NCBI GenBank assembly: GCA_019055375.1
Contig: JAHQIW010006935.1
Location: forward strand, 1-64,000
Source: Parelaphostrongylus tenuis
Taxonomy: Eukaryota; Nematoda; Chromadorea; Rhabditida; Metastrongylidae
Direction: 5' to 3'
Length of the DNA: 64,000 nt
The translations under genes were made by a program, and so were the position numbers. Each line of letters opens with the position of its first letter. Position 1 is the first letter of the stretch. Below the pieces are notes generated by a model, which searched no databases, was not told the DNA's origin, and was given only the letters and a program-made list of their open reading frames with translations. Below are positions 3,099 to 64,000 of this stretch, piece after piece.

Positions 3099-3405
3099 TG
3101 GTATTCCAAAAAAAAAAGAATGTCCAAAGCTTAAACAAGATTGGGACACCATTGCCATAGACCGGTGTTTCGGAGGTTTTGGCCTCCTCGTCAGTGACCC
3201 TCGCCCCACATTAAGCCCTGCATTGTAGCAAGGAGGGAGGCGTATGTGGTGATGGCATAGTGTACAATGACACTGGTCCATCACCACTTTTCAGTCGATG
3301 GATTTGGTCACTAACGAGGAGGCCAAAACCTCCGAAACACCGGTGTATGGCCCTGGCGTCCCAACCTCGTTTAGGCTTTAGACATTCCCTTTTTTGGAAT
3401 TTTTT
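3099..3405. mobile_element. Fold-back element, family C, with hammerhead-like cores in both arms
   Basis: The inverted repeats include 'ggtattccaaaaaaaaaaga' with 'tcccttttttggaat', 'gaccggtgtttcggaggttt' with 'aaacctccgaaacaccggt', and 'ggcctcctcgtcagtgacc' with 'ggtcactaacgaggaggcc'. The loop region is about 3205-3290. No coding content. The arms hold a hammerhead core (better preserved on the minus strand, 3160-3194). Confidence 0.75.
3160..3194 (-). ncRNA. Hammerhead-like core in the left arm of the family C fold-back
   Basis: Minus strand: core CTGACGA, a perfect 5-bp stem II GGAGG/CCTCC with loop CCAAAA, then GAAAC, a 2-bp stem III AC/GT with loop ACCG, and GTC before the cut. All core positions fit the hammerhead consensus (CUGANGA..GAA..UH). 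Stem I flanks pair poorly, so it is probably a decayed or trans-acting copy. The other arm (+ strand, 3311-3345) has CTAACGA and a G at position 17, so it should be inactive. Confidence 0.5.
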
Positions 3406-3660: not shown

Positions 3661-4088
3661 AATTCTTTTCATTTAACCGCATTTTTAGCGGTGGTATGAT
3701 GTTACAAATATACTCAATGATGTTCAGTGATGTGCGAAACTTTGACGTCGGGCGGGACGCGAACCCGCATTTTACCCTTTCCCGAACGCGTGCTTACCAG
3801 TTGCACTACTGACGCTTGTTTTGCCACCACTCTTTGCGCTGCAAGGCATCAATCGATCAGCAACCAACCGTCAAAGGTTTGGCTTGGCAACCTACATCGG
3901 CAGTGATCCTAATTACTCTGGAAGATGCTAACGCCGGTAGTGCAGTTGGTTAGCAAGCGCTCCCGAAAAGGATGAAATGCGGGTTCGATTTCCGTGTGAC
4001 ATGAAAGTTCAGCACCTTACTCAACACCATTGGGAATTTTTGTAGCATCATGCCACCGCTAAAAATGTGGCTGAATAAGAAATCTTGT
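3661..4088. mobile_element. Fold-back element with head-to-head tRNA-like modules (family B)
   Basis: TIRs: 'catttttagcggtggtatga' at about 3682 is the complement of 'catgccaccgctaaaaatg' at 4049-4067. Each arm contains a tRNA-like module. The left is in minus orientation ('cgggacgcgaacccgcattt', 3751-3812). The right is in plus orientation ('gtagtgcagttggttagcaa' then 'gcgggttcgatttccgt', 3935-3995). It is the best preserved copy of the family and defines its TIR. Confidence 0.8.
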
Positions 4089-5215: not shown

Positions 5216-5364
5216 TATCCATAGTTGTTGAAGCGTTTAAAGTGCATCTCAAAGGTTCCAGTGCAACAGTAAACGCAATCGGCTATTTTGAGATCTTTCT
5301 CATGAACAATACAATCTGGCGATGTATTTCAAACCTATCGTGAAGTCTGCTACGGCACTTATGC

Positions 5365-5690
5365 AATGCAAGACACGTGTTTCGGCCTTCGAGCCTCATC
5401 AGTTTCGCGGTGCGTTTTTGTTAAGTCAGTTCCCCGGGAATCTATCCCTTACAAAGAGGAGTCGATGACGAACATTTTACAATCACGTACGGTGAAACAA
5501 TCACCGTGATGTCAGACAATCATCGCTCGACAACTAAGCATTCCGAAAGAATATGACGGTGATTGTTTCGTCGTACTTTGAGTGTGAAAGTGCGTTGTCG
5601 ACTCCTCTGTGTAAGGGATAGATTCTCGAGAAACTAAGTGAACAAAAAGGCACCGTGAATCTTATAATGAGGCTCGAAGGCCTGCTATAA
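5365..5690. mobile_element. Fold-back element, family D, with hammerhead core
   Basis: Inverted arms: 'ttcggccttcgagcctcatc' against 'aatgaggctcgaaggcctgc', 'aatctatcccttacaaagag' with 'gtgtaagggatagattctcg', and 'gagtcgatgacgaacattt' with 'gtgcgttgtcgactcctct'. The centre near 5500-5560 contains a second short palindrome ('tgaaacaatcaccgt' / 'acggtgattgtttcg'). No coding content. Confidence 0.75.
5372..5402 (-). ncRNA. Hammerhead ribozyme core in the family D fold-back
   Basis: Minus strand: CTGATGA core, stem II GGCT/GGCC (with a G-U pair) and loop CGAA, GAAA, stem III AC/GT with loop ACGT, then GTC at the cut. All invariant core bases of the hammerhead are present. The flanking stem I (5403-5408 against 5366-5371) pairs only partly. 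The other arm (near 5668) keeps ATGAGGCTCGAAGGCC but has lost the GAAAC, so only one arm could cleave. Confidence 0.55.
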
Positions 5691-20669: not shown

Positions 20670-20723
20670 ATGAGCACCGTCTCGCCGCCTGAACCTTTCG
20701 TCTCAACCTCTTTGAGCTGGCAG
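20670..20723 (+). CDS. ncbp-3: NCBP3-like exon 1 (start codon)
   Basis: ATG at 20670 opens an 18-codon exon (MSTVSPPEPFVSTSLSWQ) ending at a strong donor (cag|gtgagc) in phase 0. Exon 2 also begins in phase 0. I chose this ATG because the codon frame, donor and phase all agree. No upstream ATG in frame gives a better exon. Confidence 0.6.
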
Positions 20724-23700
20724 GTGAGCAAAGTTTCAGGTGTGCGAGCGGTCTCGTACACTCTCTGATATCGCATTCATGGTTTGTTAGTGAGATTTGT
20801 GTGAGCAAATTTCATCTCTGCTTCAGAGGGATGTTGTTTCTTTGTCTTCTTTTTTTCTTTGTCTCGAGAAAGATTGCAAGTGAGGAAAGGAACCTAAGGA
20901 TTGTGAGAATTTTATATAATTGGGTATTAACCTCCGTTTAGATACCGAATCGTTTGAAATATTATATTGCACAGAATTTTGCAAGTTTTTCAGCATTTTA
21001 ATCAGGATATAGATGATTTACTTTAATAACGATGTAAATTTTATGAGATTGAATGTTACAGCCTGTCATTGTGAACGAATGCCGTCCAACAGAGAAACTG
21101 TTTGGAATAACACGACGTCATGTAGCAGAGGTATTTTTAATATTTCATTGATAACAAAGCTTTTCAGACGATTAAGAGGTGATCTAATAGATTGAAGTAA
21201 CATCCAAGAAACTATACTAACACATTTGTAGGCTACTGAGTTAGCACAAGATCCGTATGGAAACAATACAAATGGGTTAGAATATGATCGTGATCAGAAG
21301 ATTGTTAATAGTAGTTATCACATTATCGAATGCACGGCGGCTTTTCTATTTTTGTCCAAATATTAATTTGCAGCTTGAACAATGAAAAACATAAGCTATA
21401 TTCGATGTCTATAACAGTTTAAAACTCTAAATTGTCTATTAAACTCATATAGGCCAAATTTATATTGACTACATCAGCGGTTTGTGAATGAACAAAAAAG
21501 ATAAAGCTCCTTTCAAAGTGTAAATTAGACTCATATAGGCTAATTTCTTATTCACTACATCGGCGGTTTGTGAATGGATGAGACACTGAAATGGCGACAA
21601 ATCTTTTGAGATCGGGAAGAAGCGGTATAGTGAAATAATTGAAAACATGCAACTAAATGTTTGGATTTTGTCAACTCAGCTGTCAAGATAATGATTTTAG
21701 GCCTTTGTCAAACTTTGTAACGCAATTTACGTGACCGAATTCTCCTTTATAAAGACGGTTGAGGTTTTTTTCCCAGTCGGGTAATTTTGAGGTGACGCTA
21801 ATGTTGGGGATTCCCTGGAAATGAACCTTTTCCTTGCTCAAATTTCTCGTTCCACATTGCCAATCGTTCGTTGGTTCATCTTATTGCGTAAAGGTCGGTT
21901 TGTTTATGAACAGGCATTAGTTTATGGAAATCTGCATCCATATATATACATTTATTTATACTCCGCATCGGTCCCATGTTGATATAACAATTTATTAATA
22001 GCATTTGTTTAGATGAGCTTATGCATTTTTGCATCGCCGATCTAAATGGCAGCTACTGCTCTAATGCGTCTAAAATCCTCTATATTGCATTGTTACTTTG
22101 TTGTGAAGGGTTACAGGGGACATCTGAGAAAGTTCATATTGAAGAAAGATAATTAATATCTGATGACGAATATAAAGTGCGTATCAAGTCTATATTTATC
22201 TAAAAGCAATTTTTCAAGCTATTGAATTCAATTGCTTCTTATATATTTGCTTAGGAAAGGAAAGAAATTGTACTACATAAAATGAAATTGGTAGTATGTT
22301 TGAGTTTAGAAAATATATTTATAGCAAAGGTTTTTTTTGGAGTGTGCTGTCTTCAATTTAGGAACAATTTGATCGGTTTTTCTTCTTTCTTTTTCTCTGA
22401 ACTAATCAATCTCCATTAGTGAGTGGTGGTCCTATCCGCATCATTGGCTCGACTAATTGCTACAGGTCCTCGTCGTCGTCGTCGTCGTCGTTGTTGTTGT
22501 GCATCATCGGTTTACACGCACGAATCTGCCCATTTTTCATGGCAATCATGAACAATACAATGTCATTATTGTTCCACTAATCCATAACTGCGTTTACATA
22601 CTTGTAATCTGACGTATGATTCAGCAAATATATGGGCAAGAAAAAAAATAGCTGATCAGAGTTCCACAAAAAAAGATTTAATGGCGATATTTTCGGAGTT
22701 TTTTTTTACATGTTTATGCAGTGGCAGTCACATTTTGATTAGGTCATTTAGGCGTGTAAGTCGAAGCAAATACTCCTCCTACATGTGTAGCATACAGAAT
22801 AATTACGGAGCAATAGTGCTATAAAGTTTTAGTATTTCCACCGAATCCGATCACGATTCCTGCAACTGTACTTTTATTTTGTAAACGTGTCTGATCGATA
22901 TTCGCAAAATTGTTTAATCACATACGGTGCGCGTTCCAGCATTAGAGTGTTTTTTTTTTCTCAAGGTTAGGAATATAAAAGTCGTCAGGCTCACATAAAT
23001 CGCATTGATTTTGAGGCTCAGTTCAAATAATTACAATCACGTCCTATTGATGGGTTTTTTCATATTGATAAGTTAGTGCCCTGTTTTTAATCTGTCTTTA
23101 GAAAGGCAATCAATATAATTCGCACTCTTCTTCTAATGAGGTGAGTTCTCAGTAATTTATCGTAGGCTATTCAAAGCTCTACTCTCTAACTCGACATGAA
23201 TGAATGTGATGAATATTTGACGTTGCATTTGGTGATTAATTGAACGTAGAAATGTCCGTAATTGGTCGACAGGCAGATGGATGAACGACCGACCACCCAT
23301 GAAGCGTTGGCGTGTTGCGTGTGTGTGTGTGTGTGTCTGTATATCTGTGAATATACATATATATATATATATATATATACGGATATATGTGTGTGTCTAT
23401 CTATACATATGCGGTATTCAGTAAGAGGCAGATCTCTAAAGATAATGAGAGTGCGTGTGTGTGTGTATGTGCGCTCTCGCGTGCATGTGCTGCTGTGATG
23501 CATTGATCTGCCATGGTGGCTATGATGGTGGTGGTGGTGGTGGAGCGGGTTAATATCATGAAATAGCGCTCTCATCGTTTGATGAAGACAACGATGACGA
23601 CGACGACGACGACGTCGATGACGGACGGACGGACGACGGCTGCTATCAGTTGGCCATAATTGCTATGTCATTTTGTGAAAGAGGCGCCTTCTTTTTTTGT

Positions 23701-37800: not shown

Positions 37801-40800
37801 AACAGTATTTTAGGTGATAATCCAAAACGAATTCGAGAGGATTTTGTAGAAGTGGATGTGGACGTTATTGACATACCACCAGGTAAGTTTTTTCTGAAGT
37901 TCTACTGTAGCGTTAAAAGAAGAATGGATCACCACTGATAAAACGCTTGTAAATCTTCTGCGATCCACTGCAGGTCGATGGCGAGTGGTAACGTCTCATG
38001 TGCCTGAGCGTCGTTTCATGATTGTCAAATTTGCGACAAATAATGAAATATCGGTGAGATCTTCTTTACTGATAAAATCCGGAGAATCTAGTAGCTTATG
38101 GATGTTGTCTTTTACACTTTCTAGATTGAGTTGTTGGATGTTCCTTTTTTCACTCTTCTTTTTGTCATGTTAACCTTGATTTTCCAATTTTCATTTACAG
38201 GAGGCTCGAAAACTCATCTCTACAAGTGAAAATGATGGTGCTCGTAAACGAAAAAAAGAAGTAGATGACCAAGGTTATTTAATAGTATGGTCTTCGTGCC
38301 AGAAATGTAACAGTGGTTCTTAATTTCTTCCAATAATGTATCATGTGATATTTTGCAGGTTTCACATATTTGTGGTCATCAAAGGTGAAAGTACGACCTG
38401 GTTTGAATGTTTTCGACGAAAAAGGCAACGAACTGGAATGGGATTATGAGCATGACACTCGGTGAGACTGAGTTGTGCTCAGAGATTGTTTTGAGAGTGC
38501 TACTTTGAAATTTAATTTCAAAGAAAAAAATTCGAAATTAAACTTTAACCAAAAAATGAAAGCTTTTCCTTTCAGAGCTGGATCATTGGGTGCTCTCTGG
38601 TGTAATTCGAATTTTAGAACAACCTCTTTCTATGTTTTACTTTGCTGTAGTGTATATTCAGGCCATGACAGACACTATTTCTTTGATTTTTGCCCCCTAA
38701 CGATCGACAACTGTCTCCAGTGAAGTAGTCTTTGATTTCCATTAGCTACGTTTTAATGGTCTGTTGGTACTTAGAAATGCAAAATTTTTGCAATAAATTA
38801 GAGAAGTGTATTAACAGAATTTGAAATAACAGATGACATACGGATTTCGCTCTACCACAAATATCTTTACGAATAGGAAAAGGTTCCAGTAAATGTGTTA
38901 GTGTCTTTATATGTTTGAAAAGAACACGTGTGGCCCAGTGGTTAGAGGAGTTCTACAGTGGCAAGGAGTTCTGATTTTCATTCTATAAATGAGTTAAACC
39001 ACACGCACTAGGCCTCGTGTAGGCAAATTAGTTCACGACTAATTTAGGCAGACAAAAAACATGCAGCGGTATACTTTAGTATTGAAATTTCCAGTAAAGA
39101 TCTTAAGCATTCTTATGCCGTGTTTCCAGATTTTATGATGTTGATGATCCAAACATTTTCCAAAATAAGCGCGATAAGCTACCGGATTACACTTATTCAG
39201 GAGCGCCTCAAGCAAAAGTTGTCAAGGTAAGTGTTATTTGAAGGTGATCTTTTCTGACTTCAACCCTCTTAACTACTTAGACGCATTTGAATTGCACGCA
39301 CCTAGATAGCCCTACTAAATATGAATCGGTCGTATATCTCTACCAAGAGTTTAGACTTGATTTCAATAAATTCTGAAATTCACCATCCTAATTAAATCGT
39401 AAAGTTATCGGATTAACGAGACATGTATTCAGCACTTTTACGCTTTTCTTCGTCAATATCTCAATTTGTCGCTAAGCTTAGACGTCGTCATTACAAATAT
39501 TTACTGTAACTATTGTTTTTGCGGTTTCCCCTCATCACGAAACTTTTATGATACGAGTGCAGTGCCCTCAGCAGCTGTTTTTTTTTTCTTAATCTCGCAA
39601 TGTTGATCATCGTAGGTGTCGTATCGAATTGAATTGAGTAGAGTAGAGCTTTGCATGGATGAAATAGCGTCCTCAGCACTGAAGTCATCCAGAATCTTAG
39701 AGGGAGCCTAATTCTAAAATGATTTTGAAGATATCAAAACCCACACAAACGATAGGTATGATACATAATTGCAACATCTTATCCTATGCTTATCGATGAA
39801 TTAAGGTACTTATATCCATTAAGCGGTCCAATCAAAATGGAGACTGAATGTTTTTTTTCCTTTAATCATCCTCTTCTATTTTTTAACACTTAAGGTTCCA
39901 GTTGAGTTGATCTGCACGTAAATGTTGCCATAATGATGACATCTTTATACTTTGAATCAACATATCTTTCTTGCGCTGTGAACTTTATTGGTTTAAGTAA
40001 AAAGTTCTAAAATGCGTCAATTTCTGCTTACAGAATAAAAGCACTTTTGTTTTTACATGATTAATTCCTATTTTCTGGAGCCCATCAAATATATTCAATG
40101 CACTTTTTTTCGTGGAGACTCGCATTTCGAGAATGAAAGCGATTGAGCAAGAGATATTTCGTCCATTAGAACACAATGATGTCTCCAGTGTATTATTAAT
40201 GTTCATGACGCTTGGGATTCCGTATGAAAATTTGGGAATTCAAATCTTGTTTTTTTTTCTCAGGAAAACTTCTATTTCAAAAGGGCTTAAAAATCAAATA
40301 GCAGTCTCAAGAAATCTTACTGTTTACTCTAGAAAGCCCGAGTCAGATCTAGCAGTTTCATCTGTCTCAATTATATGTTTCACTTTTTGAGTATTTAACT
40401 TTTAGCAAAATCATCAGCATTTTGTGAAAAGCCAGTTTTGGAACCTGAATGATAAATTGGGTCTTATATGACTACATATCAATTGGTCATACTAAGATCA
40501 TATATCAGTTCACTGTTATATGCACTATGTACCCTATGGAGGAGTTCGTGCTAGTTATCCGTAATGAGTGTAGAAGATTAAAAGAACAAAACGGCTCTGA
40601 AGAAGGCGATACCACCGTAACGTCAGCCATTATTTTATTGCAGTGAGTGATTCGATAGATTCCAATATTGACAAGCTCGCTTCTGCTCATCAAGAATTTC
40701 ACTGAATTATTCCTTCTATTGTGACGTTGATGGATAGTCGCTTTTGAGAAGCTTCGACATCGTCCTCAGAATCGTAAAGGATGATATATCAAATTCTTTG

Positions 40801-41812: not shown

Positions 41813-41839
41813 GCCGTGCTCGAGTTATTGTATGATGAG

Positions 41840-42945
41840 TATCTTCTTTTGTTTAGCCGCTCCGAGGTGTTATTGATATTATTTATTAAATATCATTGAA
41901 GCATATAACAATACAGCTAATAATGCAGCATGACTATTACAACAGTCGTGATGGCTTACGTTTTGGCAAGGTTCTCCATCTTCAAAGCCTGGAAAGGTCA
42001 AATTGATTCGTAAATTATTAATGCAAAGGCCTTCATAACCCAGCAGAAAAACGTAAGAAATAAATTTTTGGGTCGCATACGAAAAAATTTCTTTTAAAAA
42101 ACACTCACGGCTTAGATGTTTTGGTCCTTCAACTAATCACTGAAACCTACCACTTGGAGTATGTGCTTATGTGAGACTGTGCCTGGCTCAGGCCGGGAAT
42201 ATTAGCCTGAGGTATGGTGCAAGGCCACGCGTTAATATGAGGCTCTCCTCTTTGTGGTTCATTTTTTGGGCCTTTGCTATGTATCCAAAAGGCTTCCAAA
42301 GTTTTACGCGTAGATGTTTTTGATTCCTGTGCAAGGACCGTGAATTTAACGTCAAAATCTGCTCCTCTATGCTTTTGTTCCTTATGCTTGTCTAGTGGGG
42401 TGTCTGGGTCGGAGTTACGTTTTGACGTTGAATTCACGGTCCTTGCACAGGAATCAAAAACATCTACGCGTAAAACTTTGGGATCCTTTTGAATACATAG
42501 CAAAGGCCCAAACATGAACAGCAAAGAGGAGTGCCTCATATTAATGCGTGACCTTGCACCATACCTCAGGTTAATATTCCCGGCCTAAGCCAGGCACATT
42601 CTCACATAAGCACAGACTCTAAGTGGCAGGTCTTCAATGATTAGTTGAAAGACCAAAACATCGAAGCGGTGACAGTTTTTAAAATGAGGTTTTCTCCTAT
42701 GCGACCCGAAAATTCATTTCTTACATTTTCTGCTGAGGTTATGAAAGCCTTTGATTTAATAATTTACGAATCAATATGACATTTTCAGGCTCTGAAGATG
42801 ACGAACCTTGCCGAAACATAAGCCATCACAACTATTGCAATATTCATGCTGCTTTATCAACTGTTTTGTGATATGCTTCGCTGATATCCAATAAATAATA
42901 TCAATAAAACCTCGGAGCGGTTATAACAGAAGAAGAGACTCTTTA
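41840..42945. mobile_element. 1.1 kb near-perfect palindrome in the NCBP3-like 3' UTR or 3' flank
   Basis: The left arm opens with 'agccgctccgaggtgttatt' (41855) and the right arm closes with 'cctcggagcggttataacag' (42910-42929). Pairing continues inward through 'catgactattacaacagtcg' with its complement near 42815-42845, to 'tgaatttaacgtcaaaatct' with 'ttttgacgttgaattcacgg'. The loop is about 50 nt near 42390. Both arms carry a hammerhead-like CTGAAGA..GAAAC end motif (right arm 42792-42817). AATAAA occurs only in the right arm (42891, 42903); ATTAAA lies at 41885. The ~130 and ~72 codon frames inside are palindrome by-products. Confidence 0.88.
41885..41890 (+). promoter_or_regulatory. Candidate poly(A) signal ATTAAA
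   Basis: First plausible polyadenylation hexamer after the stop codon, 73 nt downstream, already inside the left arm of the palindrome. Confidence 0.3.
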
Positions 42946-43390
42946 TTCAAACTATGCCGAGGTTAATAGATAGTCGGTCTGGGATTTATTGTATGATGTA
43001 CGGGAACACCGAATACATCTGTTTGTTTTGGTAAACTGGCATTACTAATTGTTGTAACGTGCACAAAGTTGTGAAATTCTTTGTTTTTATCATGTGCACT
43101 TTCATCAGCCGTCATTTTATTGTTCCAACATAAATATGTAATCTTGTACTTTTCTGAGTTTGGTTCAGATTTTTTTCGCCGTTGAAAATTACAAGCTGGG
43201 TGTTCCTGAGTATTTTACGGTGATGGGACTTTATTGAAATACGTCGCTAAAATTACTTTTCTTCAAGATCTCCTTTTGTGTCAGTATCCAAGCTTATGGC
43301 TTAAGCCTTATAGATCTTTCTAAATTGATATTCTGCTACGTGCAATCACAGCGTGGTTGGCGAACACTAAAATCGTATTATTACCTTCGA
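42946..43390. other. Intergenic spacer
   Basis: A 13-bp direct repeat of the sequence just left of the palindrome ('ttattgtatgatg', 41825) occurs near 42987. Otherwise nothing supported. Confidence 0.4.
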
Positions 43391-43437: not shown

Positions 43438-44470
43438 ATTCACAGAAATCAGTACTTATTCCACAGTCAGTAGTCAATAAAGGCGCGTCAAGCTGTTTTT
43501 TGAGATAATCGTCGTATTGTTTGGTTCGGTTCGGTTATTCGATCTGTTTGAAGAAGAAAACTTCAAGTCGGAGAATGACAGACCTCAAAGGGCTTAATTT
43601 AGGCCAACAAGTTGGCTGGCGGATCTGCCGAAATCTATGTACGTAGTTGTGAAAGATCCAGTGGACTATGAGTATTACATTGTCCTTATAGAGTGGGCAA
43701 GTTAGAACGGCCTCGGAGTTTTCTGTATAGTAAACTGCAACTTATCGATTATACTATTCAGTTATGTTGCTTACAACCGGTATTTATTTATCGTTGTTGT
43801 AATTCGTTCATGTTCCTCAATCTGAGTAAGTGGTAAATGCTCGAGCATAGCGCATCGCCATCACTCGAGAGAACAGGTTAGATTTCAAGCAAAGGTCAAG
43901 TACCAACTATGCTTGCTATCAGCGTCCTCAGCGTTCTATTATAGCATCATTCACTCATAGACGAATACACATTAATTAATACCTTCTATCAAAGCTTGGA
44001 ACTTGACTGGCTCAAAGCATTCTGTAAGACTATATTGAATTGTGAAGCAAGGCCTCAGAAGTAGTCGATTAGAAGGTATGGCTATATGCCGTGTTTACCA
44101 GCCGTATACTAGCGACTGAAAATTTATCTGGACCGCCACATCAAGTAATCTTTTCACTTTACGAGGAATGATATATTTTTGACGACGATAGTAATAGAGA
44201 AGACGATCAGCCGAATGGCATGTGGCACTGATGAGGCTTGCAAAAAGCCAAAACGTACGTCTACCACTCGAGATGCCATACCAGATCTCTTAAAAGAATT
44301 AAAACATTGTATAAAGCATATCAACTACTTTCTAGGCTATCTAATGCTGAGTCGGGATAACGGATGAAATGTCAGGTATGCAGCGTTGATTTACCTTTGG
44401 GGAAATCCTCATACACTTTACCCTCATGCGTGACATCGTAAACGTGATTGGGCGCTTGTTTGGGCTACAC
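43437..44470. other. Intergenic, no supported gene
   Basis: A 62-codon frame at 44179-44367 has a few G/C-ending codons but no splice sites or recognisable domain. Confidence 0.35.
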
Positions 44471-46900: not shown

Positions 46901-47727
46901 TTACCATTCTATGGTTATATATGTTTCCATAGTAGCACTGCGATGAAGCAGAAATAGCAGAAAATGAAATCTCAAGAAAGGTCATTGAAATGCAGATACG
47001 AGTGTTTAATTTTTCAAAGCTGTTTCCGTTAAGTTAAATAAAAAAAAATGGACAGTTTTCAGAAGACGGTAAAGTTTCATTAAATTTGTCGAATCTAGAC
47101 TTTGTTTATTATCTAGCTAGTTGGGAATAAATCTCATCTCTACTGCTTTACTGCTACTTTGTGGCTTGGTTGCTCTTGGCTTCAAAGCGCAATATTCAAT
47201 AGATGCACGTCCTCAGCAATCAAACAAAAGGTGAAAAATCGACATTCATTTTTTTCTCAATTAGCTGCTCTACTGAGGTACGAATCGCTTACTACCTGGA
47301 AAAGACTAAGCGAGATCTAGCAAATCTGTTTTTATTTTGAATGGATGGTGATCTGTGGAGAAAATGTTACGCTTTTTTGTGGTTTTATGGAAAAAAGACT
47401 CTATCCATTTAGTTCGAATTGTTGCGCACTGTTCTGTAGTTCGTAAATTCTGAGTTATTGAACATAATTGTTGCTAATTTTCACTGCTTGGTTCAAATTT
47501 TTTACTTTTCCTGTCCACGGAGCAGGTAGTCATTTAGTCGTTAGGTGGCAACAATTTCCGACTTAAATGTCACAGAGTGCAGCAAATGGCAGCTTGTGAA
47601 AGAGTTCAGAGATTTCAAATACTAAAGCTATCTTTTATCTGCGATGGCAATGTTCTGATTTGTACCCACAGCTTGATAGCTATCCTTGTAGTTATCGTCT
47701 TCTGAAGATGATCACGTTATGTGATAC
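46901..47727. other. Intergenic spacer
   Basis: AT-rich. The end (47698-47725) has 'ttctgaagatgatcacgtta', resembling the fold-back end motifs. Confidence 0.35.
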
Positions 47728-48100
47728 GTCGGGGAAAAAGTTCTAAGAAGATGCTAGTAATTTTTTTGTGTCGGCAATTTTTTGTGTTTTTGGGTTCATT
47801 TGGAAGCCCGTCTTCTCCAGCGTTGATTGATATATAATTTAGCTACTTATTTCAAGATGGAGCTAACAAGCAAGCAAATTAGGTGATTGATGATGCACGA
47901 ATGGTTGTTGGGTTCAAATGCAACGGTGGACGCATCAATCTGGCTTAGGGCGAAGACGCAGATGGCAAAAGTACGATGTACAAGCGGTACCAATCAACGC
48001 GGAAAAAGGCGGGTTTTCAAATGAGCCCAGAAGGACAAAAAATGGCCAAAACTCAGAAAACTTACAAGCATTTCCTCAGAACTTTTTCGCCAACCTATTA
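47728..48100 (+). mobile_element. Mariner-derived MITE (internally deleted)
   Basis: TIRs: 'ggggaaaaagttctaagaag' (47730) pairs with 'tcctcagaactttttcgcca' (48073-48092). The subterminal 'cccgtcttctcc' and 'aaaggcgggttttcaaatga' also pair. A remnant of a mariner transposase N-terminus is readable: the MELTSKQI start, a stop, then MMHEWLLGSNATVD, the helix-turn-helix region. About 370 bp; the catalytic part is absent. Confidence 0.75.
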
Positions 48101-48164
48101 CGATTCATTACGAGAGAGATATGGTCAGAAGGAATGATTTAGCCCTTTTTTGAAACTGATATAC

Positions 48165-48470
48165 TAGTGACTACGTAAGTTTTACCGGTCTTGCCCGCCT
48201 CATCAGAGCCATGTGCTCAGCACAAGCCAACCCTAATAATAGCAGGAAGGTCGAACGTGGATCGGTAAGAACAAAGTGAAGGTGATGTTATATGCTTTGT
48301 GAGAGCCGCGTAAGCCATCGACTCAGAATAGGTGAGAATGGCAAGATAAGTAATGTTTCACGTTGTTCATCAATCCACGTTCGATTTTCCAGCGATTGGT
48401 AGGTGGACTTGGGAGCATGTGGATCTGATGAGGCGGGCGAGTCCATCGCACGTAAGCCACTAGCGTACGA
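48165..48470. mobile_element. Fold-back element with decayed hammerhead-like ends
   Basis: 'agtgactacgtaagttttac' inverted as 'cgcacgtaagccactagcg', 'gcccgcctcatcagagccat' as 'gatctgatgaggcgggcg', and 'aggtcgaacgtggatcggt' as 'atccacgttcgattttcc'. Both arms keep CTGATGAGGCGGGC but the GAAAC half of the motif is degraded. Confidence 0.75.
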
Positions 48471-51440: not shown

Positions 51441-51509
51441 TGGGAAGATATATAAATATTTGTACTTATGCACATGTATATATGTTCCATATATCAATAC
51501 TCTTTTTTG

Positions 51510-52740
51510 GCACTTTTCTGCTATCTGCTCGCAATTTCGACTCCGTGTAAAAAGCGTATTTCTTGGCACTTTTCTATGTACAAGTAGTCGTTCGATAGAG
51601 CAAATCAAAATAATTTGAATTATATGGCTATTTTCAAAAAAGGCATTCTCATTGCGCTAAAAAGCGAAAATAAAATTCTGTTTCTCATTAAAAGATTTTT
51701 CGCTGAACAAAGCTTTTTCTTCGGAGTATTATTAATCAATCGATAGATCACAGCTTAAGGATTCCAATAATCTATTTAGCTTTCATAAAAAACTTGGTAT
51801 TATGCGGTAACAGCCAAGAGAAGATTCGGTTTTGCAAAAAATGGATCTCTACACTAACCTCTCTTCACATCGATACAATGGAAAAAACGTACTTCTCGAT
51901 CGTTTTCAATGTTCAAATAATCAATATTTAGCCTAAATTAGAAGAATTGTAATGGTATATTTCACTTTCGAAAAGCCCTTGTTATCGCGCTGACAGAGCA
52001 ACGATATTGATTTGTTCCTCATTCGGAGATTTCTAGCTGATCAGTGTTTATCTTTCATGGAATCAAAAACTAAGCGATAGATCAAATTTCAGAAATTTCG
52101 ATAATGTTTCTGGTTTCTTAAACGGACTTTTTAGTGCTTCATAAGAACCAAAAAATTGGGTTTCGAACTCAAAACTATTTTCCACTTTTGCCAAACCTAA
52201 TCTAAATCATAAGAATTCTTTGATCCTGATTTTTCGATTTGTTACCGATACTCCAAAGGGGAAGCTTTGATCAGCGAGAAATCTTTGAACGAGAAGCAAA
52301 AATTTGTTTTTGCTCTTTCAGCACGACAAAAAGGTTTTTTGAACAAGAAGTACAGCAGGAAATTCTCATGATTTGTACTATCGAATGGCTACTTGAACAT
52401 TGAGAATAACCAAAAAATACATTTTTTCCAAGGTATCGAAGTGACAAGGGCAGAATAGAAGTGATCAAACCACTCTTTCTTGGCACTTACAGCGTAATGT
52501 GTCGTCGATTCTGAAAGCCATCTAAACCACTAGAATTCTTAAGATTTGATCTATCGATTGATCACTAAAACTCCGAAGGAAATTGTTTGCTCAGCGAGAA
52601 ATCTTCGAATGAGAAACAAATTATTATTTTTGTTCTTTCAATGCAATAACAAGGCTTTTTCAAAGCTGGTATACACCGTTCAAATTTTTGTGGTTTAAGT
52701 TATCGAATGTTTATTCAGTCGTCAAAAGCGAGCGCAAAGT
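51510..52740. repeat. ~330 bp repeat family: two direct units facing two inverted units
   Basis: The plus-orientation unit 'cattgcgctaaaaagcgaaa', 'gatttttcgctgaacaaagc' recurs about 335 bp later as 'atcgcgctgacagagcaacg', 'agatttctagctgatcagtg'. After about 52180 the units are inverted ('gatcagcgagaaatctttga', 'tttgctctttcagcacgaca', again near 52590). The structure is a palindrome of tandem pairs. Unit motifs recall the tandem repeat at 1-300 and 8465-8965. Confidence 0.6.
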
Positions 52741-52849
52741 AAGCTTATCTATCAGGGTCGAGTTGCCGAGCAGATAAAGGAAAAGTACCCTTTTTTATTA
52801 AAAACACATAATTGATCCGTCTTCACAGTGTTATTTTTTACTTTGAGGA

Positions 52850-54240: not shown

Positions 54241-54590
54241 TAACGGAAGGGAATCGCGGTTTTTTCTGACTAGAAGGAACAAATTGAAAAATCGATCTCA
54301 TTCGCTTGAGGAAGAACTTTTCACACGACATCTTAGTAACCATTTGAAAGCTGAGAGTAGAGCCTCAGCCTCACATCGTCGGTTTTTCAAAAATACTCCT
54401 ATGTACGCTCCAACATTCAAAATAAAATCATGCTCCATAAAATCACGTGTATTTTCTCCTATCTCGCTATATATTTCGTTGGGACGAAACTTCTTCCTCA
54501 GAGTGCTAGAACTCAAACTTTAGCACAAGCCTGATAATTTGTTTTTGAGCCACGCATCTTTATGGCCTGTTAAATGGGCTGACTTATAGA

Positions 54591-54634
54591 GCCCGATACA
54601 CGTGTTTTCGATCTTGCGATCTCGTCAATCGGGC
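54591..54634 (-). ncRNA. Hammerhead ribozyme motif (copy H2, decayed)
   Basis: Minus strand: GCCCGA, then TTGACGA (C3 changed to T), stem II GATC/GATC with loop GCAA, GAAA with one extra A, stem III AC/GT, and GTA before TCGGGC. Stem I pairs 6 of 6. The C3 change and extra A probably abolish cleavage. Confidence 0.55.
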
Positions 54635-54944
54635 AGTTACCCTTTCGTCTTTTTTTGCCAATCCTGTATAGGTGCTCCAGTCCCCATACTTAGTGTTAGC
54701 GACGACGAACATTTTACTCTCTATGTCCAGTGAAATCACCACTGAACACAGAGTGTTGTGCACTAGACTCGACTAAAAGAAATGATATATCACGTATACT
54801 AGCCAAGAGCAATCGAGTGTACAACACTTTGTGTTCGATGGTAATTTCAGTAAACATAGAGTGTGAGTGTTCGTCATCGGTAACTCTTAGAGTAGGGACT
54901 GGAGCACCCACACAGGAATGGCAAAAAAAGACGAAAGGGCAAGT

Positions 54945-54987
54945 GCCCGACTGACGAGATTGCAAGATCGAAACACGCGCATTGGGC
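54945..54987 (+). ncRNA. Hammerhead ribozyme motif (copy H3)
   Basis: GCCCGA, intact CTGACGA, stem II GATT/GATC with loop GCAA (G-U pair inside), GAAA, stem III altered (U16.1 replaced by C, ...GCGCA), then TTGGGC. The missing A15.1-U16.1 pair predicts low activity. Confidence 0.55.
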
Positions 54988-56245
54988 TCTATAAGTCCAG
55001 TCCCATTTAACAGACCAGTGACATGCGTGGCTCAATAACAATTATCAGGCATATTGAAATTTGAGCTCTGGTCTTAAGAAAACACTCGAAACGGAAAGAC
55101 ATAGCGTAAGCTCAAAAAACTCAAAAATGTTTCCACTTTGTATGAAAAAAGCTCTTTTTATCTTTCGATCTCTCCTTAGTCTCTTGATTTGTGCTTTGAA
55201 CCTGGCTGGACAGAGCTCTTTCTATAGACTATAGTAATTACTTAATAGCGCAATGTTTTATGAATCTAGCCATGAGCTTAGTTTTTGGAAATACGGTTTT
55301 ACCAGGGAAAATGAGATCGAGTCTTACATTTTTTATAAAGCTATTTACAGGACTCTTCGACAAGATAGTGGCCGTGTCAGGGGCATGGCAAGGACGAGGC
55401 GAGACGGGACGATCACTATTTTGTTATTCAATTGGAATTTTTTCACCGTTCCGAAAATACTCCAGATAAAACGACTGACTAAGACGCTACCAAAATTCCT
55501 CTGCGCAATGATATGCTCTACGGCGTCCAGCGAATCAAACGCGTGGTAAAAATGATAGCAAAAGACGAGTGTGAAACATGATTTTTGGTCTGGGGTGCTA
55601 CAAAATTATAGAAAGATGCAAGCTAAAGTGCAAGTGTAACTCCAGCTCTGTCGAACTTTGTGATTCTTCCTTAATACTGACATATTATGTGCTTGGTCTT
55701 GTCATATTATCAGCAGAGTATTGGCAGACTAATCGCACGATTCGCTGGTGCCCTTGAAGAACTGGATGCGAAAGGTATCGAATTCACCTTCATACTGCAG
55801 GCACTCAAGCGAAAACTTAAGACGGATTATCTAAATGTTTTTAAGATAGTTTTTTTGTATATTGAGTACTTTGGCTAATTCAGAGTAGACTATTGACGGA
55901 AATTTTTCTATCGGGTGTTACACTCTTCTTCATGACAATGGGCTAATAAAAGTTTTGGCGAGGACGACAAAAAGGTTTCGAGTGGGAAGTGTAGGTGAGA
56001 CTTCTTTTGTTTTGCTTATTCTCTTCAGACGACGAATATCCCGTCACAGGGTGACGCTCATAGCAGCCTCTTCTTCCAGCTGCAACTACAAGATGATAGG
56101 AAATATTTTTGCTACACATCGTAATTCCGTAGATAAAATTGAATGCTAACTTTGTTCGGCAGACATCCGTATATAGGAATTATTAGCATCATTATCGACT
56201 AATGAGTAGAGGTACCTGTAAAATACTTATATTATATACAAGTAA

Positions 56246-56491: not shown

Positions 56492-57865
56492 GTATTATAT
56501 ATATTTTATATATGTATATATTCCCTTCCGTACAGCGCCATTTCGACTGACGGGCGGCTAGGACGGCTATGAAGAGAGGTTGCCAGCGTCCTCTCTAGAC
56601 TAATGTGATGGTTCCCTAATGAATTTCATATTTTCTTCGTCATCAGATAGGATTAATGTGTTCAAGAAATGGTCAAGTATGATAGAACAGACCTCATCGA
56701 GATAATTTTTATTAGAAAAAAAACGTAATTGCTCCATTTTTGATTCCACACTTCAAAGAGGAATACATCAAGTTTTCACGCGAAAGTCAATATTTAGAAC
56801 CTTTATTGAACATTTCTATGATATTTCACTCATAATTGACACACATGATCATCTTATATTCAGTCAATATTGATGTACATAGAATTCACCACACTGGGAG
56901 AAATTTGGATAACAATGCATAGTTTGCCAAAAATAGTGCCGCTTATTGCGTGAAAATCCGACTACATCGATAATTTCCAATACTTTTTTAGTTATCAGTG
57001 CACTCCAGATATCCATTTCTCATATCAATGCGTAATTTTGTTCGAATTCTTCATTCATAGCTATGGTATACGGTGAAAATGTAGAGATATATCAGTTCCG
57101 ATTCTTTCCGATTATGAGGAAATGAATGAAAAACCGACCTCATTCGCTGGAGAGAAATTTTTCATAGGAGTGTTAGTGACCACTCGCAAGCTGAGATCTT
57201 GAGGCTGCCGCCCCACGTCGCCGCTTTTTCAAAACATCCATTTATAACTTTGTAGCACTCAGATCAAAAATTATGTTTCACACTCGTCTTTTGCTTTCAT
57301 TTTTACCACGCGTATGATTCGCTGTACGCCAAGAGCATATCATTGCGCAGAGGAATTTTGGTAGTGCCTTACACAGTCGTTTTAGCTGGAGTATTTTCGG
57401 AGCGGAGAAAAAATTGAAAAAACTCCCAACTGAATAGCAAAATAGTGATCGTCCCGCCTCGCCTCGTCCTTGTCACGCCCCTGACACGGCCATTGTCCTT
57501 GTCGAATAGCCTGTAAATAACGTTACCAAAAATGTAAGACTCGATCTCATTTTCCCTAGTAAGCCGTATTTCCAAAAAATAAGCACATAGCTAGATTCAT
57601 AAACATTACGCTATCAAGTAATTACTAATAGTCTATAGAAAGAGCTCTGTCCGGCCAGGTTCAAAGGCACAAACAAAAGACTAAGGGAGATCGAAATATT
57701 AAAGAGCTTTTTACAAAGCGAAGACATTTTTGAGTTTTCTTGAAGCTTGCGCTATATCTTCCGTTTTAAGTGTTTTCTTAAGACCGGAGCTCAAATTCAA
57801 TATGCCTGATAATTGTTATTGAGCCACGCATGTCAGTGGTCTGTTCAAATGGGCTGACTTATAGA

Positions 57866-57908
57866 GCCCAATGCACGTTTTTCGATCTTGCGATCTCGTC
57901 AGTCGGGC
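57866..57908 (-). ncRNA. Hammerhead ribozyme motif (copy H4)
   Basis: Minus strand: GCCCGA, intact CTGACGA, perfect stem II GATC/GATC with loop GCAA, GAAAAACGTGCA (stem III C15.2 and U16.1 positions altered), then TTGGGC. Core and stem II are perfect; the stem III/cleavage side is damaged. Confidence 0.55.
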
Positions 57909-58221
57909 AGTTGTCCCTTCGTCTTTTTTGCCAATCCTGTGAGGGGGCTCCAATCCCCACACTAAGAGTTAGCGACGACGAACATTTCACACTCGATGTT
58001 TACTGAAATTCACCACCGAACACAGACTGTTGCACACTGGATTGCTCTTGGCTAGTATATTCAATTTATCATATCTTTCTTTTAGTCGAGTCTAGTGCAC
58101 AACACTCTGTGTTCAGTGGTGATTTCACTGGACATAGAGTGTAAAATGTTCGTCGTCGCTAACTCTAAGTATGGGGACTGGAGCACCCATACAGGATTGG
58201 CAAAAAGGCGAAAGGGTAACT

Positions 58222-58264
58222 GCCCGACTGACGAGATCGCAAAATCGAAACACGTGTATCGGGC
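58222..58264 (+). ncRNA. Hammerhead ribozyme motif (copy H5, best preserved)
   Basis: Stem I GCCCGA (58222-58227) pairs 6 of 6 with TCGGGC (58259-58264). Core CTGACGA (58228-58234). Stem II GATC (58235-58238), loop GCAA, AATC (58243-58246), three of four pairs with the conserved closing G-C intact. GAA plus A15.1. Stem III AC/GT with loop ACGT. Cleavage predicted after A58258 (GTA). All invariant residues are present. It is a minimal type-I-like hammerhead with short stem III, the form found in Penelope-like elements, which tends to work as dimers. Confidence 0.75.
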
Positions 58265-58570
58265 TCTATAACTCAGGCCATTTAACAGGCCATAGAGATG
58301 CGTGGCTCAAAAATTATTATCAGACTTGTGCTATAGTATGAGCACTAGCACTCTGAGGAAGGAGTTCTCTCCAACGAAATATAAACATAGGAGAAAAAAC
58401 ACGTGATTTTATGGCACAGATTTGATTTTGTATGTTAGAGCGTTACATAAAGTATTTTGAAAAACCGACGACGTGGGATGTGGCTCTCAGTTCTCAGCTT
58501 TCAAACATGGTTACTAAGATGTCTGTAGGAAGTTCTTCTCTCAGCGAATGAGTTTGATTTTTTATTGTTC

Positions 58571-59137
58571 GATTCTAATCAGAAGAGCCTCTACTGAAAT
58601 TACCATGTGTTAAGTGATCAATAATCTAAAAAGACTCAGTGATATGAATTTTTCAGATCATCGTTCCCTTCCTCGGTTCAAAAAGCGAGAGAATCGCCTG
58701 CAAAAAGTCCAAAGAGAGCAAAAAATGGTTTTGAAGAGTTATAAAAAGCGTGGTCATGTACTATTTGTGGCAGATACTATGTTTTATTAAGAAGCACCGC
58801 TCAATTGAGTCATGCAATTTTTGTTACACGTCGAAAAACTACTAATTTTGAAGCCCCAAATTTCCCTTTACTATTTGATTGGATAAATTTGCTTCAATAG
58901 CATCATCATATTCTATATAGATAGCGGCAGATCGTCTTTAACACTGTCCATCTTTAAGAACCCAAGCTCTTCGCGAGATTATCAAAGCTGAATTAGAAGT
59001 GCACTGAAGGTCAATGATTCGTTGGTCAACTAATGTGGAGGGAGTTTTCTGTGGCCTCGTACTGCAATTTTTAATCGTGCAACACTACTCAAATTTCGTT
59101 GTTTCTTTACTTTTTGGACAGCAGAATGTGATTTTTA
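58571..59137. other. Spacer between the large element and the mariner relic
   Basis: No supported feature. Confidence 0.35.
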
Positions 59138-59697
59138 GGTTGGTGAAAAAGTTCTGAGAAAATGTTTGTAACTTTTTTAGGTGTTCGGCCATTTTTTGTG
59201 TTTTTAACCTAATCTGAAATCCCGTCTTCTCCTGCATTGATTGGTACATAATTTATCTAATTATTTCAAAATGGAGTTGACTAGCGAGCAAATCAGGTTG
59301 TTGATGATGCACGAATGCCTGTTGGGTTCAAATGCAACGGTGGAAAGTGAACGCATCAATGTGACTTAAGGCGAAGACACATTTGCAAAAGTACGGTGTT
59401 CAGGTGGTTCAAAAAGTTTGTCGAAGGTGAAGAAGGTTAGAAAGATCAGCCATGTTCAGGTCGTCCACATTTAAGCGTTCACTTGCCACCGTTGCATTTG
59501 AACCCAACAGCCATTCGTGCATCATCAACAAACTAATTTGTTTGCTGGTTAACTCCTTCTTGAAAAAGGTAAATAAATTATATACCAGTCAACGCGGAAG
59601 AAAGTGGGCTTTCAAATGAGCCCAAAGACGCAAAAGATGGCCGACACTCAAAAAGTTACAAGCATTTTCTCAAAACTTTTACGCACACCTATTAAAA
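59138..59697 (+). mobile_element. Mariner-derived fold-back MITE
   Basis: TIRs: 'ggttggtgaaaaagttctga' (59140) against 'ctcaaaacttttacgcacac' (59669-59688). A mariner transposase N-terminus is readable on + from 59271: MELTSEQIRLLMMHECLLG, SNATVESERINVT, stop, then CSGRPHL. The same N-terminal DNA recurs inverted at 59490-59560 ('cgttgcatttgaacccaaca', 'cattcgtgcatcatcaacaa'). So the element is a fold-back of the 5' half of a mariner. The catalytic domain is missing. Confidence 0.75.
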
Positions 59698-59699
59698 AA

Positions 59700-60450
59700 C
59701 ATAGGCGTGTTGTGCATGGTAGGAAAGGAGAATGTGCTGCTTTGATGATGAAGAAGCGCACAGCACCCGGACAGCATGAAATTATGTTTGAACACCGGCA
59801 CATGAGCTCAGTTTTTTACATATCCATTGGATCATTAGCTTAAATTTCAACAAAATCATTATAAGTGATGTTTCAAATTCATTCTTTCTATTGTTTTTCT
59901 TCAATTTTCACTTGCACAACCCTCAGAGAATTAACAGAACACTGAGTGTACGTGAGTCATGTAATCAAACATGTTTTAAAAAGAGCTCTGCACAAGGGAT
60001 GGTGTTTACATGACTAGAAATTAATTGCCCTTTTGTATTCATTGACTTGAAAAGTCTTGTACTCAGTGCGGACACAAGGGGTTTGACCTGCTTTTTTACG
60101 CTGTTCATATCATCTTCAAAAAAAAAAGTCTTCGCAGGTGATTTTTCTTGTTGGAATTACTCGCCAAATCTCAACAAGTACGCGCAAAATGTTTATTTCC
60201 ATGATCGGTGACATTATTCAACTTTGATTGAACGCAAAGAAGATATGTCGTTATCTTAATGGCATTTTGAACGGGGAAGTTTAGTGTATACGACCGCTCG
60301 TGCTAGGTTGTGACTATAATAAGGTACTCGTGATACATAATAACTCAGCGATGCGATATACGTCAAACAAGCAAGGAAATGAAATGATCGTAAACAAGTG
60401 AATATAAGAATAGCTCACCGAAATCAGGGTTGTTCATTCATTGTTCACAG
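59700..60450. promoter_or_regulatory. 5' flank of the SH2-kinase-like gene
   Basis: About 750 bp between the mariner relic and the SH2 exon. No exon or repeat is recognised; presumably it contains the promoter or an outron. The acceptor at 60441-60450 (cattgttcacag) could be cis or trans. Confidence 0.25.
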
Positions 60451-62669: not shown

Positions 62670-62910
62670 TGTCGAGCAGTTAGAATGTCACAGTATCCAG
62701 CCATTTTTGAGGCTTTGTTACGGCACTGGTGTACATACGTTTTGACGATCTCGCTCGCCTCGTCAATACCACACGCCCCATTAGCCACCATACACAGTAT
62801 TCTGAAACCGTCGAAATAAAGGGCATTGAGTGCATCATAGATGGCACCCATGCACCCTAGACTGTGAAATAGTCCTAGACAAGATCTCACTTTGCGAGGT
62901 CTTATCATTC
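62670..62910 (-). other. Coding-like block, minus strand, unrecognised
   Basis: A 102-codon frame (62600-62908) includes VRSCLGLFHSLGCMGAIYDA, LNALYFDGFRILCMVANGAC and EIVKTYVHQCRNKASKMAGY. It is Cys-rich with balanced codon use over about 80 codons, higher in G+C than its flanks. No acceptor or donor pair is obvious, and the 3' end runs into a TATA repeat (62600-62665). It could be an exon or a relic; no family recognised. Confidence 0.3.
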
Positions 62911-64000
62911 TTCGCCTTACTCTTGCTAGTATGTTGGCCAGTGGGGTGTATGGTACTGACAGACGAATGAGATCGCCGAAATGTATGCATACCGCTGGTG
63001 TAAGAAAATATCGAAAGCTGCTAAATCATCCTCTATGAATATATGAAAAATTAAAAAACGGACTTTTAAAAAATAGTATAAATAAACAGTTCATACAGCA
63101 TTACATTGGGCATATAATGCGCGACCGATTGTCATGAGAGAACAGCCATTGACATCGTACAATGAGCCTGATTTTTCAGTAGAAGCAAAGCGAGAGCTAT
63201 CAAAAAGCGGCGGAAGTGCTTTGTGAATATCTATAGCACCGAGAAGACAGAAATTGCCAGCAAAGTACTAATTCAAGTGAATTGTAGTCAAACCTTTTGC
63301 TTGCTGGAAAAAGCTTTTCTCCAAAATTCGGGCAATCATTCAATAGCTCACATCTCGTTAATTTCAACACAGAATTCTGTCTTGAAAAGACCTTTGCTTT
63401 TTCCTGTTTTTGGTAATCCTTAGACTACGTTGATTTTTTTAAAAGGGCTTTGTAAGGAATTGGGATCAAGAATAATATTACGTTTCGTCTTCGAAGATTT
63501 TTCCTGCACATATGAGAGATACATGCATCAAAAGCATATGAGCGTAAAAAGTCTCGCCATGTGAGAATGTAAAGAAATCTGAAGACTCTTTTTTTTCGCA
63601 AGAGTGAGGAAAATGTTGAATACGTAGCGAAGATAGCGCTCTCTCCAACCGCAGCGTTTTCAATTACCACGTCAAAAAAGTTCGATTTAAAGCATTTTTA
63701 GGAATTCTTTCTACAATCCAAGACATTTTTAAATATCATACACTTGTAGAAAAAGCTTTGCTCTATCGTTCTGTAGTTATCAACCCTTTACTTCACTTCA
63801 TTATGACAAATATAATTCACTTCATGATGACCCTCATGAAATTTAAGTAAAGGGCTAATTACGCCGAGTGCGTAACGAAAACTTCCTTCGCTTTTACAGA
63901 GCGCAAGAGAGACTTTATCGATTTTCAAATCTAGTTTTAAAACAATAAAATTCATGCTGAAAATAGATCCTGGAGTTATGAAGAAAATTTGGCAAAAATG
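62911..64000. other. AT-rich end of the window
   Basis: Contains segments resembling the 53.3-54.2 kb repeat-like sequence ('gctggaaaaagcttttctcc', 'cttgaaaagacctttgcttt'). No exon recognised. Confidence 0.3.

Follow-up and report, generated by a model that had tools for sequence, protein, structure and literature searches.

The question raised by this locus is whether a short motif at positions 58222-58264 of the stretch of Parelaphostrongylus tenuis DNA analysed here (64,000 nucleotides, hereafter the window) is a genuine hammerhead ribozyme, and in what kind of repeat it resides. Comparison of the sequences makes it very probable that the motif belongs to the type I hammerheads and that the repeats which carry it are non-coding, palindromic and interspersed in a nematode genome. 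Three lines of evidence point to this reading: the motif itself, its retention in a distant repeat with paired stem changes, and further candidates that lie nearly all in palindromes.

The motif at 58222-58264

58222 to 58264, plus strand: hammerhead R57 of family F1, complete core (sequence reading, Hammerhead_1 alignment, descriptors)

Read segment by segment, R57 is GCCCGA CUGACGA GAUC GCAA AAUC GAA A C ACGU G U A UCGGGC. Its stem I has 6 bp (GCCCGA at 58222-58227 with TCGGGC at 58259-58264), and the core segments are CTGACGA (58228-58234) and GAA (58247-58249). Helix III is formed by A15.1 (A58250) with U16.1 (T58257) and by the 15.2-16.2 pair C58251-G58256, i.e., 2 bp counting 15.1-16.1, around the loop ACGT, and H17 is A58258. 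All positions that define the hammerhead core are present, and three helices can be drawn around it with stem I open, as in type I hammerheads, this being a possible pairing rather than the minimum free energy (MFE) fold. Direct sequence reading agrees with the earlier note on the coordinates, the CTGACGA core, GAA, A15.1/U16.1 and H17=A, on the 6-bp stem I and on the 2-bp stem III with its 4-nt loop. The GCAA loop said to close stem II is wrong for R57: because C58238·A58243 cannot pair, stem II is GAU/AUC, with 3 bp and a 6-nt loop (CGCAAA), and the GCAA tetraloop is unclosed. The cut site is predicted between A58258 and U58259.

Scanned as 61 bases, R57 aligns with the Rfam model Hammerhead_1 over its full length (all 45 positions) at 25.8 bits. 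The gathering score of this model, a curators' threshold and not a molecular feature, is 34 bits, and an Rfam match above threshold, set beforehand as the refutation test, was formally not obtained. No hammerhead reaches its Rfam gathering score anywhere in the 64-kb window, and none is listed in a scan of 57500-59000 (1501 bases, E up to 1). When short stretches of six sites were submitted, R57 and two further copies described below, S1 (18.8 bits) and F2 (21.2 bits), aligned to Hammerhead_1 over the full length; the 61 bases of the copy L54 gave no Rfam match, and F3a gave no hammerhead match. The comparative evidence drawn from these sequences outweighs the sub-threshold Rfam score. A separate Rfam match, MIR6146 at 58100-58144, was rejected (25.1 bits against a gathering score of 59) as part of the palindrome.

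A strict hammerhead descriptor matches once in the window and never in 400 dinucleotide shuffles, and a relaxed one matches twice (58228 and 1767), with nine matches over all 400 shuffles together. In first-order Markov sequence, a near-identical strict descriptor finds 8 matches per 3e9 bases when stem I has at least 6 bp (3.4e-4 per window) and 18 when it has at least 5 bp (7.7e-4 per window). For one site chosen among many windows, the chance rate alone is not decisive; it is the related sites that decide. Exact-pattern scans of viral and genome contig collections returned 0 matches each and are uninformative for a nematode repeat.

Inverted copies and a distant relative

57806 to 58323: palindrome of element 57; 81% self-complementary over 524 columns, arm-to-arm fold
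57089 to 58600: element 57 including its outer inverted repeats (57089-57268 / 58421-58600, 66%)
57866 to 57908, minus strand: L57, hammerhead-like, opposite arm of element 57; CTGACGA and GAA kept
54465 to 55106: palindrome of element 54; 77% over 662 columns
54591 to 54634, minus strand: L54, hammerhead-like; C3 to U, one extra A after G12
54945 to 54987, plus strand: R54, hammerhead-like; U16.1 to C, common to L57
1761 to 1803, plus strand: hammerhead S1 of family F1, full core; one stem I mismatch and an A10.1·C11.1 mismatch
1657 to 1875: short palindromic element S1 (BLAST hairpin element at about 1616-1870)

The window self-BLAST places R57 in the right arm of the palindrome 57806-58323, i.e., inside a palindromic element, as the earlier note had proposed. 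Element 57 carries nested inverted repeats and has terminal inverted repeats; when its ends are read by eye, no target-site duplication is evident. Its opposite arm, L57, has U16.1 changed to C and C15.2 to A and is predicted to be inactive. Positions 54264-55618 hold a second element, an inverted copy of 57235-58584 (87% over 1384 columns in the self-BLAST), and R54 and L57, which share the change of U16.1 to C, are corresponding arms of the two elements. S1 is flanked by the two arms of a hairpin element (1664-1716 / 1816-1868, 53 nt each, 92%) and, judged from its sequence, looks like an internally deleted F1 element. The repeat arms measure about 250 bp, and the GC content of the window is 38.5%.

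The five F1 arms (R57, L57, L54, R54 and S1) align, with an intact core in R57 and S1, and their majority sequence is a hammerhead with a 4-bp stem II and a GCAA loop. Among the four arms other than R57, three have GATC/GATC or GATT/GATC with GCAA, L54 having a 4-bp stem II with this loop, while S1 has the closing C-G pair and the A10.1·C11.1 mismatch at the base of stem II. Across the five arms, mean pairwise identity falls from 0.899 in the motif to 0.819 on its upstream side and 0.770 on its downstream side. Sliding windows at least as conserved as the motif number 8 of 121, the motif included, and all overlap it. Motif conservation relative to the flanks is suggestive only. Within these five arms, taken with an extended stem I, no covariation signal emerges, one pair being changed on both sides and 435 of 500 shuffles reaching the same count.

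Coding capacity was sought in the elements. Element 57 has no open reading frame (ORF) of at least 80 aa, Pfam matches none of the three such ORFs located in or at element 54, and no reverse transcriptase or GIY-YIG domain was matched in the element of R57. A Pfam search of nine ORFs gave two matches, both under the curated cut-off. None of the repeat ends falls at the cut site, and no tandem hammerhead unit was seen in the window, its copies being inverted pairs or single.

A covariance model of the five F1 arms only, R1, was then the basis of a window search up to E 10 (E-values of this model and of R2, below, are rough). It returned six matches, i.e., the five training sites and one out-of-sample match, F2, at 5343-5419 on the minus strand (26.1 bits, E 3.2e-4).

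5366 to 5408, minus strand: hammerhead F2; CUGAUGA, GGCU/GGCC stem II, GAAACACGUGUC, 4 of 6 stem I pairs
5384 to 5682: palindrome of F2, overlapping the motif at its edge; 75% over 307 columns

F2 reads GCGAAA CUGAUGA GGCU CGAA GGCC GAA A C ACGU G U C UUGCAU, with two mismatches in stem I. Compared with the F1 consensus, it is identical at 11 of 11 invariant hammerhead positions and at 18 of 20 positions of the core and helix III; the two changes fall at N7 and H17, which are variable positions in hammerheads. The remainder has diverged, with 5/12 and 5/12 identical positions in the stems (42%) and 25/63 and 34/71 in the flanks (59/134 in total, 40-48%). The difference between core and remainder has a Fisher p of 8e-5, a value flattered by the fact that R1 rewards the core. 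With F2 added, 4 of 12 pairs are changed on both sides, two in stem II and two in stem I, and 5 of 500 shuffles reach four. Relatedness outside the motif is visible in the inner block of the F2 palindrome (5446-5504), which is 73% identical to 58116-58175 over 60 columns in a BLAST comparison without the motif. The other arm of F2 has a broken core, as read by eye; the same holds for both arms of element 54 and for one arm each of element 57 and F3, described below.

Further candidates among the palindromes of the window

A second covariance model, R2, was built from six motifs (the five of F1 plus F2) and run without filters. Its 18 matches up to E 10 comprise the 6 training sites, 3 named candidates (F3a, F3b and F4) and 9 that were dropped (E 1.5 or worse). 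F5 and F6 come from descriptor searches.

3154 to 3200, minus strand: hammerhead-like F3a; CUGACGA, GGAG/CUCC stem II, GAAAC ACCG GU, H17=C
3305 to 3351, plus strand: hammerhead-like F3b, inverted partner of F3a; CUAACGA (G5 to A)
3103 to 3400: palindrome of F3; 70% over 315 columns
44222 to 44267, plus strand: hammerhead relic F4; CUGAUGA, GGCU/AGCC, G12 to A, helix III ACGUACGU
48166 to 48212, minus strand: weak relic F5; CUGAUGA, AAA for GAA; partner arm 48413-48444 with CTGATGAGGCGGGC
62726 to 62772, minus strand: weak relic F6; UUGACGA, AAA for GAA; found in the two-mismatch descriptor pass

F3a (R2 match at 3154-3198, 17.6 bits, E 0.012) has an entire core and a 4-bp stem II, with 2 of 6 stem I pairs in the plain register; a two-base shift would allow UGGC/GUCA pairing. 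R57, S1, F2 and F3a have zero core mismatches (CUGANGA / GAA / A15.1-U16.1 / H17). F3b scores 12.4 bits (E 0.39), its R2 match spanning 3307-3351. F4 scores 14.9 bits (E 0.073), gives a partial Hammerhead_3 match (16.4 bits, E 0.16) and shows outer pairing ATGGCAT/ATGCCAT; no palindrome was found around it, and it is the one site that neither lies in nor overlaps a long palindrome. F4, F5 and F6 have A for G12, a change that should abolish or greatly slow hammerhead cleavage. In the relics at 44228 (plus) and 62766 (minus), a C precedes the A for G12, and CpG decay could be the source of the change there; the relic at 48206 (minus) also has A for G12.

A descriptor allowing one core mismatch finds 12 matches in the window, whereas 200 shuffles average 1.5 and never exceed 6; it adds 48206 (minus), and a two-mismatch pass adds 62766 (minus). 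Six of the 12 fall in palindromes (three in F1, one each in F2, F3 and F5), where 0.18 would be expected from shuffles. The six outside palindromes are also above expectation, only 44228 being convincing among them. Requiring at least 7 pairs in stems I and II together retains 6 of the 12, where 0.315 would be expected and none of 200 shuffles has more than 2; F3a and F5 fail this filter. A graded score of 600-bp tiles, defined after the sites were known, is at least 21 in 13 of the 212 tiles. These fall at six places, near 1.8, 3.2, 5.4, 44.2, 54.9 and 58.2 kb, each of which is one of the hammerhead sites described here. Among the 169,166 shuffled stretches of the null set, 99.9% score no more than 19.75, and the highest value, reached by one stretch, is 23.0. 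F6 scores 18.25 and lies in a weak palindrome (62705-63016), while the F5 score of 14.75 is no better than chance, 31% of null stretches reaching 14. A tile at 24.3-24.6 kb scores 18.5.

Aligned together, seven loci are invariant at U4, A6, G8, A9, G10.1, A13, A14, A15.1, C15.2, G16.2 and U16.1, a conservation partly built in by selection, since F2 was picked by a core-rewarding model and F3-F6 by model or descriptor. Stem II is 95.8% paired and stem I only 56.4%, and 7 of 12 pairs have two-sided changes, a count reached by 7 of 500 shuffles. Covariation in the type I stems is found both with F2 and with the seven loci, in few sequences. The earlier suggestion of a near-consensus hammerhead in a palindromic element is strengthened by the core-keeping distant relative and by these other candidate sites.

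Helix III is itself palindromic in many of the copies. Together with its loop, it forms the perfect palindrome ACACGUGU in R57, S1, L54 and F2; the perfect palindrome spans 8 nt in these four and in F4 (ACGUACGU), and 10 nt in F3b (ACACCGGUGU). It is one change off in F3a, F5 and F6 and lost in L57 and R54.

The palindromes extend well beyond the ribozyme sites. Of 21 palindrome rows found, 14 were counted and 7 dropped (four with far-apart arms, two overlapping at 51.5-52.8 kb, and the outer repeats of element 57). The 14 long palindromes make up 11.7% of the window, margins included; 5 hold a site scoring at least 21, 2 hold the weak ones (F5, F6) and 7 hold none. Several repeat types here tend to form palindromes, and the ribozyme is not the cause. 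Among other repeats, 59126-59702 is a palindrome with an inverted pair that resembles the beginning of a mariner-type transposase, and it is related to 47721-48101; 51509-52789 is a palindrome of 1.28 kb (64%) with no identified content; and 527-1617 is an inverted pair of about 300 bp (78%), tRNA-like or SINE-like by eye. Rfam also places a tRNA at 3744-3815 (minus strand) and a mir-87 microRNA precursor at 20679-20751 (63.6 bits, above gathering).

Folding, rival readings and relation to known systems

The predicted folds bear on whether present copies can act. In MFE predictions for 43-, 61- and 91-nt stretches of R57, stem I is kept and the hammerhead stems II and III are absent; the MFE folds of F2 and of S1 (255-nt stretch) are not hammerheads either, while those of L54, L57 and R54 include stems I and II. 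Folded as a single-strand RNA, the 518-nt palindrome 57806-58323 reaches -346.8 kcal/mol, with the arms paired together and the motif buried. Because inverted arms bury the ribozyme, cleavage would have to take place during transcription, in transcripts of a single arm or in short copies, of which S1 is an example.

The rival that survives best holds that the motifs are dead relics, i.e., that the ancestors were active and the present copies have decayed, none being cleaved in the living worm. It is compatible with the main reading and is a serious possibility, if not the favoured one. The broken cores of L57, R54, L54, F3b, F4, F5 and F6, the weak stem I of F2 and F3a, and the burial of the motif by arm-to-arm pairing all speak for it, but R57, S1, F2 and F3a keep every invariant core position. 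It is rather to be expected that at least one intact copy would cleave in vitro.

Much less survives of the proposal that a chance resemblance arose within one repeat family and was copied to its members. The lack of covariation inside F1, the Rfam scores under gathering and the few strict matches expected per whole animal genome would suit it. However, F2 keeps the hammerhead-defining positions while the rest of this distant relative has diverged, it has two-sided pair changes, and the further sites cluster in palindromes. On the shuffles, the Markov rate, the core retention of F2 and the palindrome clustering, chance was rejected as the main reading and is very improbable. Equally improbable is that the conserved block is a DNA feature (a hairpin or a transposase site of a foldback transposon) resembling a hammerhead by accident: element 57 does have nested inverted repeats, and within F1 the stretch immediately upstream is about as conserved as the motif, but F2 keeps the hammerhead positions and its stem II changes are two-sided.

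On the preferred reading, a type I hammerhead in palindromic repeats, the ribozyme class is a known one and its inverted setting is unusual. With RF00163 (Hammerhead_1), R57 has in common the opening at stem I, CUGANGA, GAA, A15.1-U16.1, H17, G10.1-C11.1 and full-length alignment; it differs in scoring below gathering and in its very short helix III. MITE/foldback elements are likewise palindromic, with no coding capacity found and with outer inverted repeats, as in element 57; such elements are not known to carry ribozymes. Metazoan non-LTR retrozymes, as described in PMC7229834, share the type I motif, a repeat length of a few hundred bp and a low GC content, but the copies in the window are not tandem. 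Dimer-type hammerheads (newt satellites, Aedes aegypti; PMC3088659, PMC7229834) have the palindromic helix III in common with the copies studied here, which differ in their nematode host and in being inverted or single. A palindromic helix III is reported in Aedes aegypti and other repeat-type hammerheads, for which dimers have been suggested (PMC3088659), and amphibian hammerheads cleave poorly as monomers and better as dimers (PMC7229834). In the present repeats, two copies could pair as a dimer through the short palindromic helix III, and by analogy the same dimer behaviour may apply.

Penelope-like elements/Terminons carry minimal type I hammerheads (PMC7761336), and the window has a Penelope-type GIY-YIG remnant in common with them, in a 1.1-kb palindrome at 41828-42950 (84%). 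Direct six-frame Pfam scans of this palindrome gave no match, so its identity rests on protein matches: a translated piece has five, four of them from Parelaphostrongylus tenuis, one labelled GIY-YIG domain-containing and one with PF01541, and the best aligns to 38% of the query with 84% identity (E 1.5e-21). These matches point to a metastrongyloid or other strongylid nematode as the probable host. The element of R57 differs in lacking any reverse transcriptase or GIY-YIG match and in having a helix III of 2 bp plus loop. The link to Penelope-like elements and retrozymes in the earlier note is indirect: the Penelope-type remnant lies elsewhere in the window, and the copies are inverted or single and non-tandem. 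Both arms of 41828-42950 contain CTGAAGA/TTGAAGA ... GAAAC/AAAAC and a GGCT/AGCC stem, which may be the decayed remains of a minimal Penelope hammerhead. A minimal Penelope-type descriptor has three matches, at 40597, 42792 and 47702, whereas 300 shuffled windows together have 13 (0.043 per window); the three are leads only. The site at 40597 (plus) reads CTGAAGA ... GTAACGTC with a GGCT/AGCC stem, as a minimal Penelope-type candidate; 42792 has a poor stem II, and 47702 adjoins a mariner-like piece.

These comparisons suggest that the palindromic repeats yield self-cutting RNA. In the mechanism proposed, transcripts through an intact arm would cut themselves after H17, which in R57 is A58258, and the downstream product would begin with a 5'-OH at 58259. 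Circularisation of the cut RNA and its copying by a Penelope-type enzyme (a reverse transcriptase), a route put forward for animal retrozymes (PMC7761336), may follow, a step that is doubtful here. Also rather improbable is a superfamily of mobile palindromic elements in nematode genomes, organised around a dimer-type hammerhead, each with no more than one working arm. Self-cleavage of the snap-back transcript would be part of their transposition cycle and the inverted dimer one of its products, e.g., through reverse transcription primed on the folded, ribozyme-cut RNA.

The metazoan hammerhead survey in PMC7229834 names rotifers, platyhelminths, annelids, crustaceans and insects, 'among others', and the word nematode is absent from the main texts of PMC7229834, PMC7761336, PMC6155905 and PMC3088659. 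Among the titles and abstract openings listed by searches of an open-access library, no report of a natural nematode hammerhead was found. If confirmed, the present finding would add nematodes, a phylum that includes model organisms and parasites, to the animals with ribozyme repeats, and an inverted arrangement to the forms that such repeats take. The role of hammerheads in animal mobile elements would then become approachable by comparing one-arm, two-arm and broken-arm elements.
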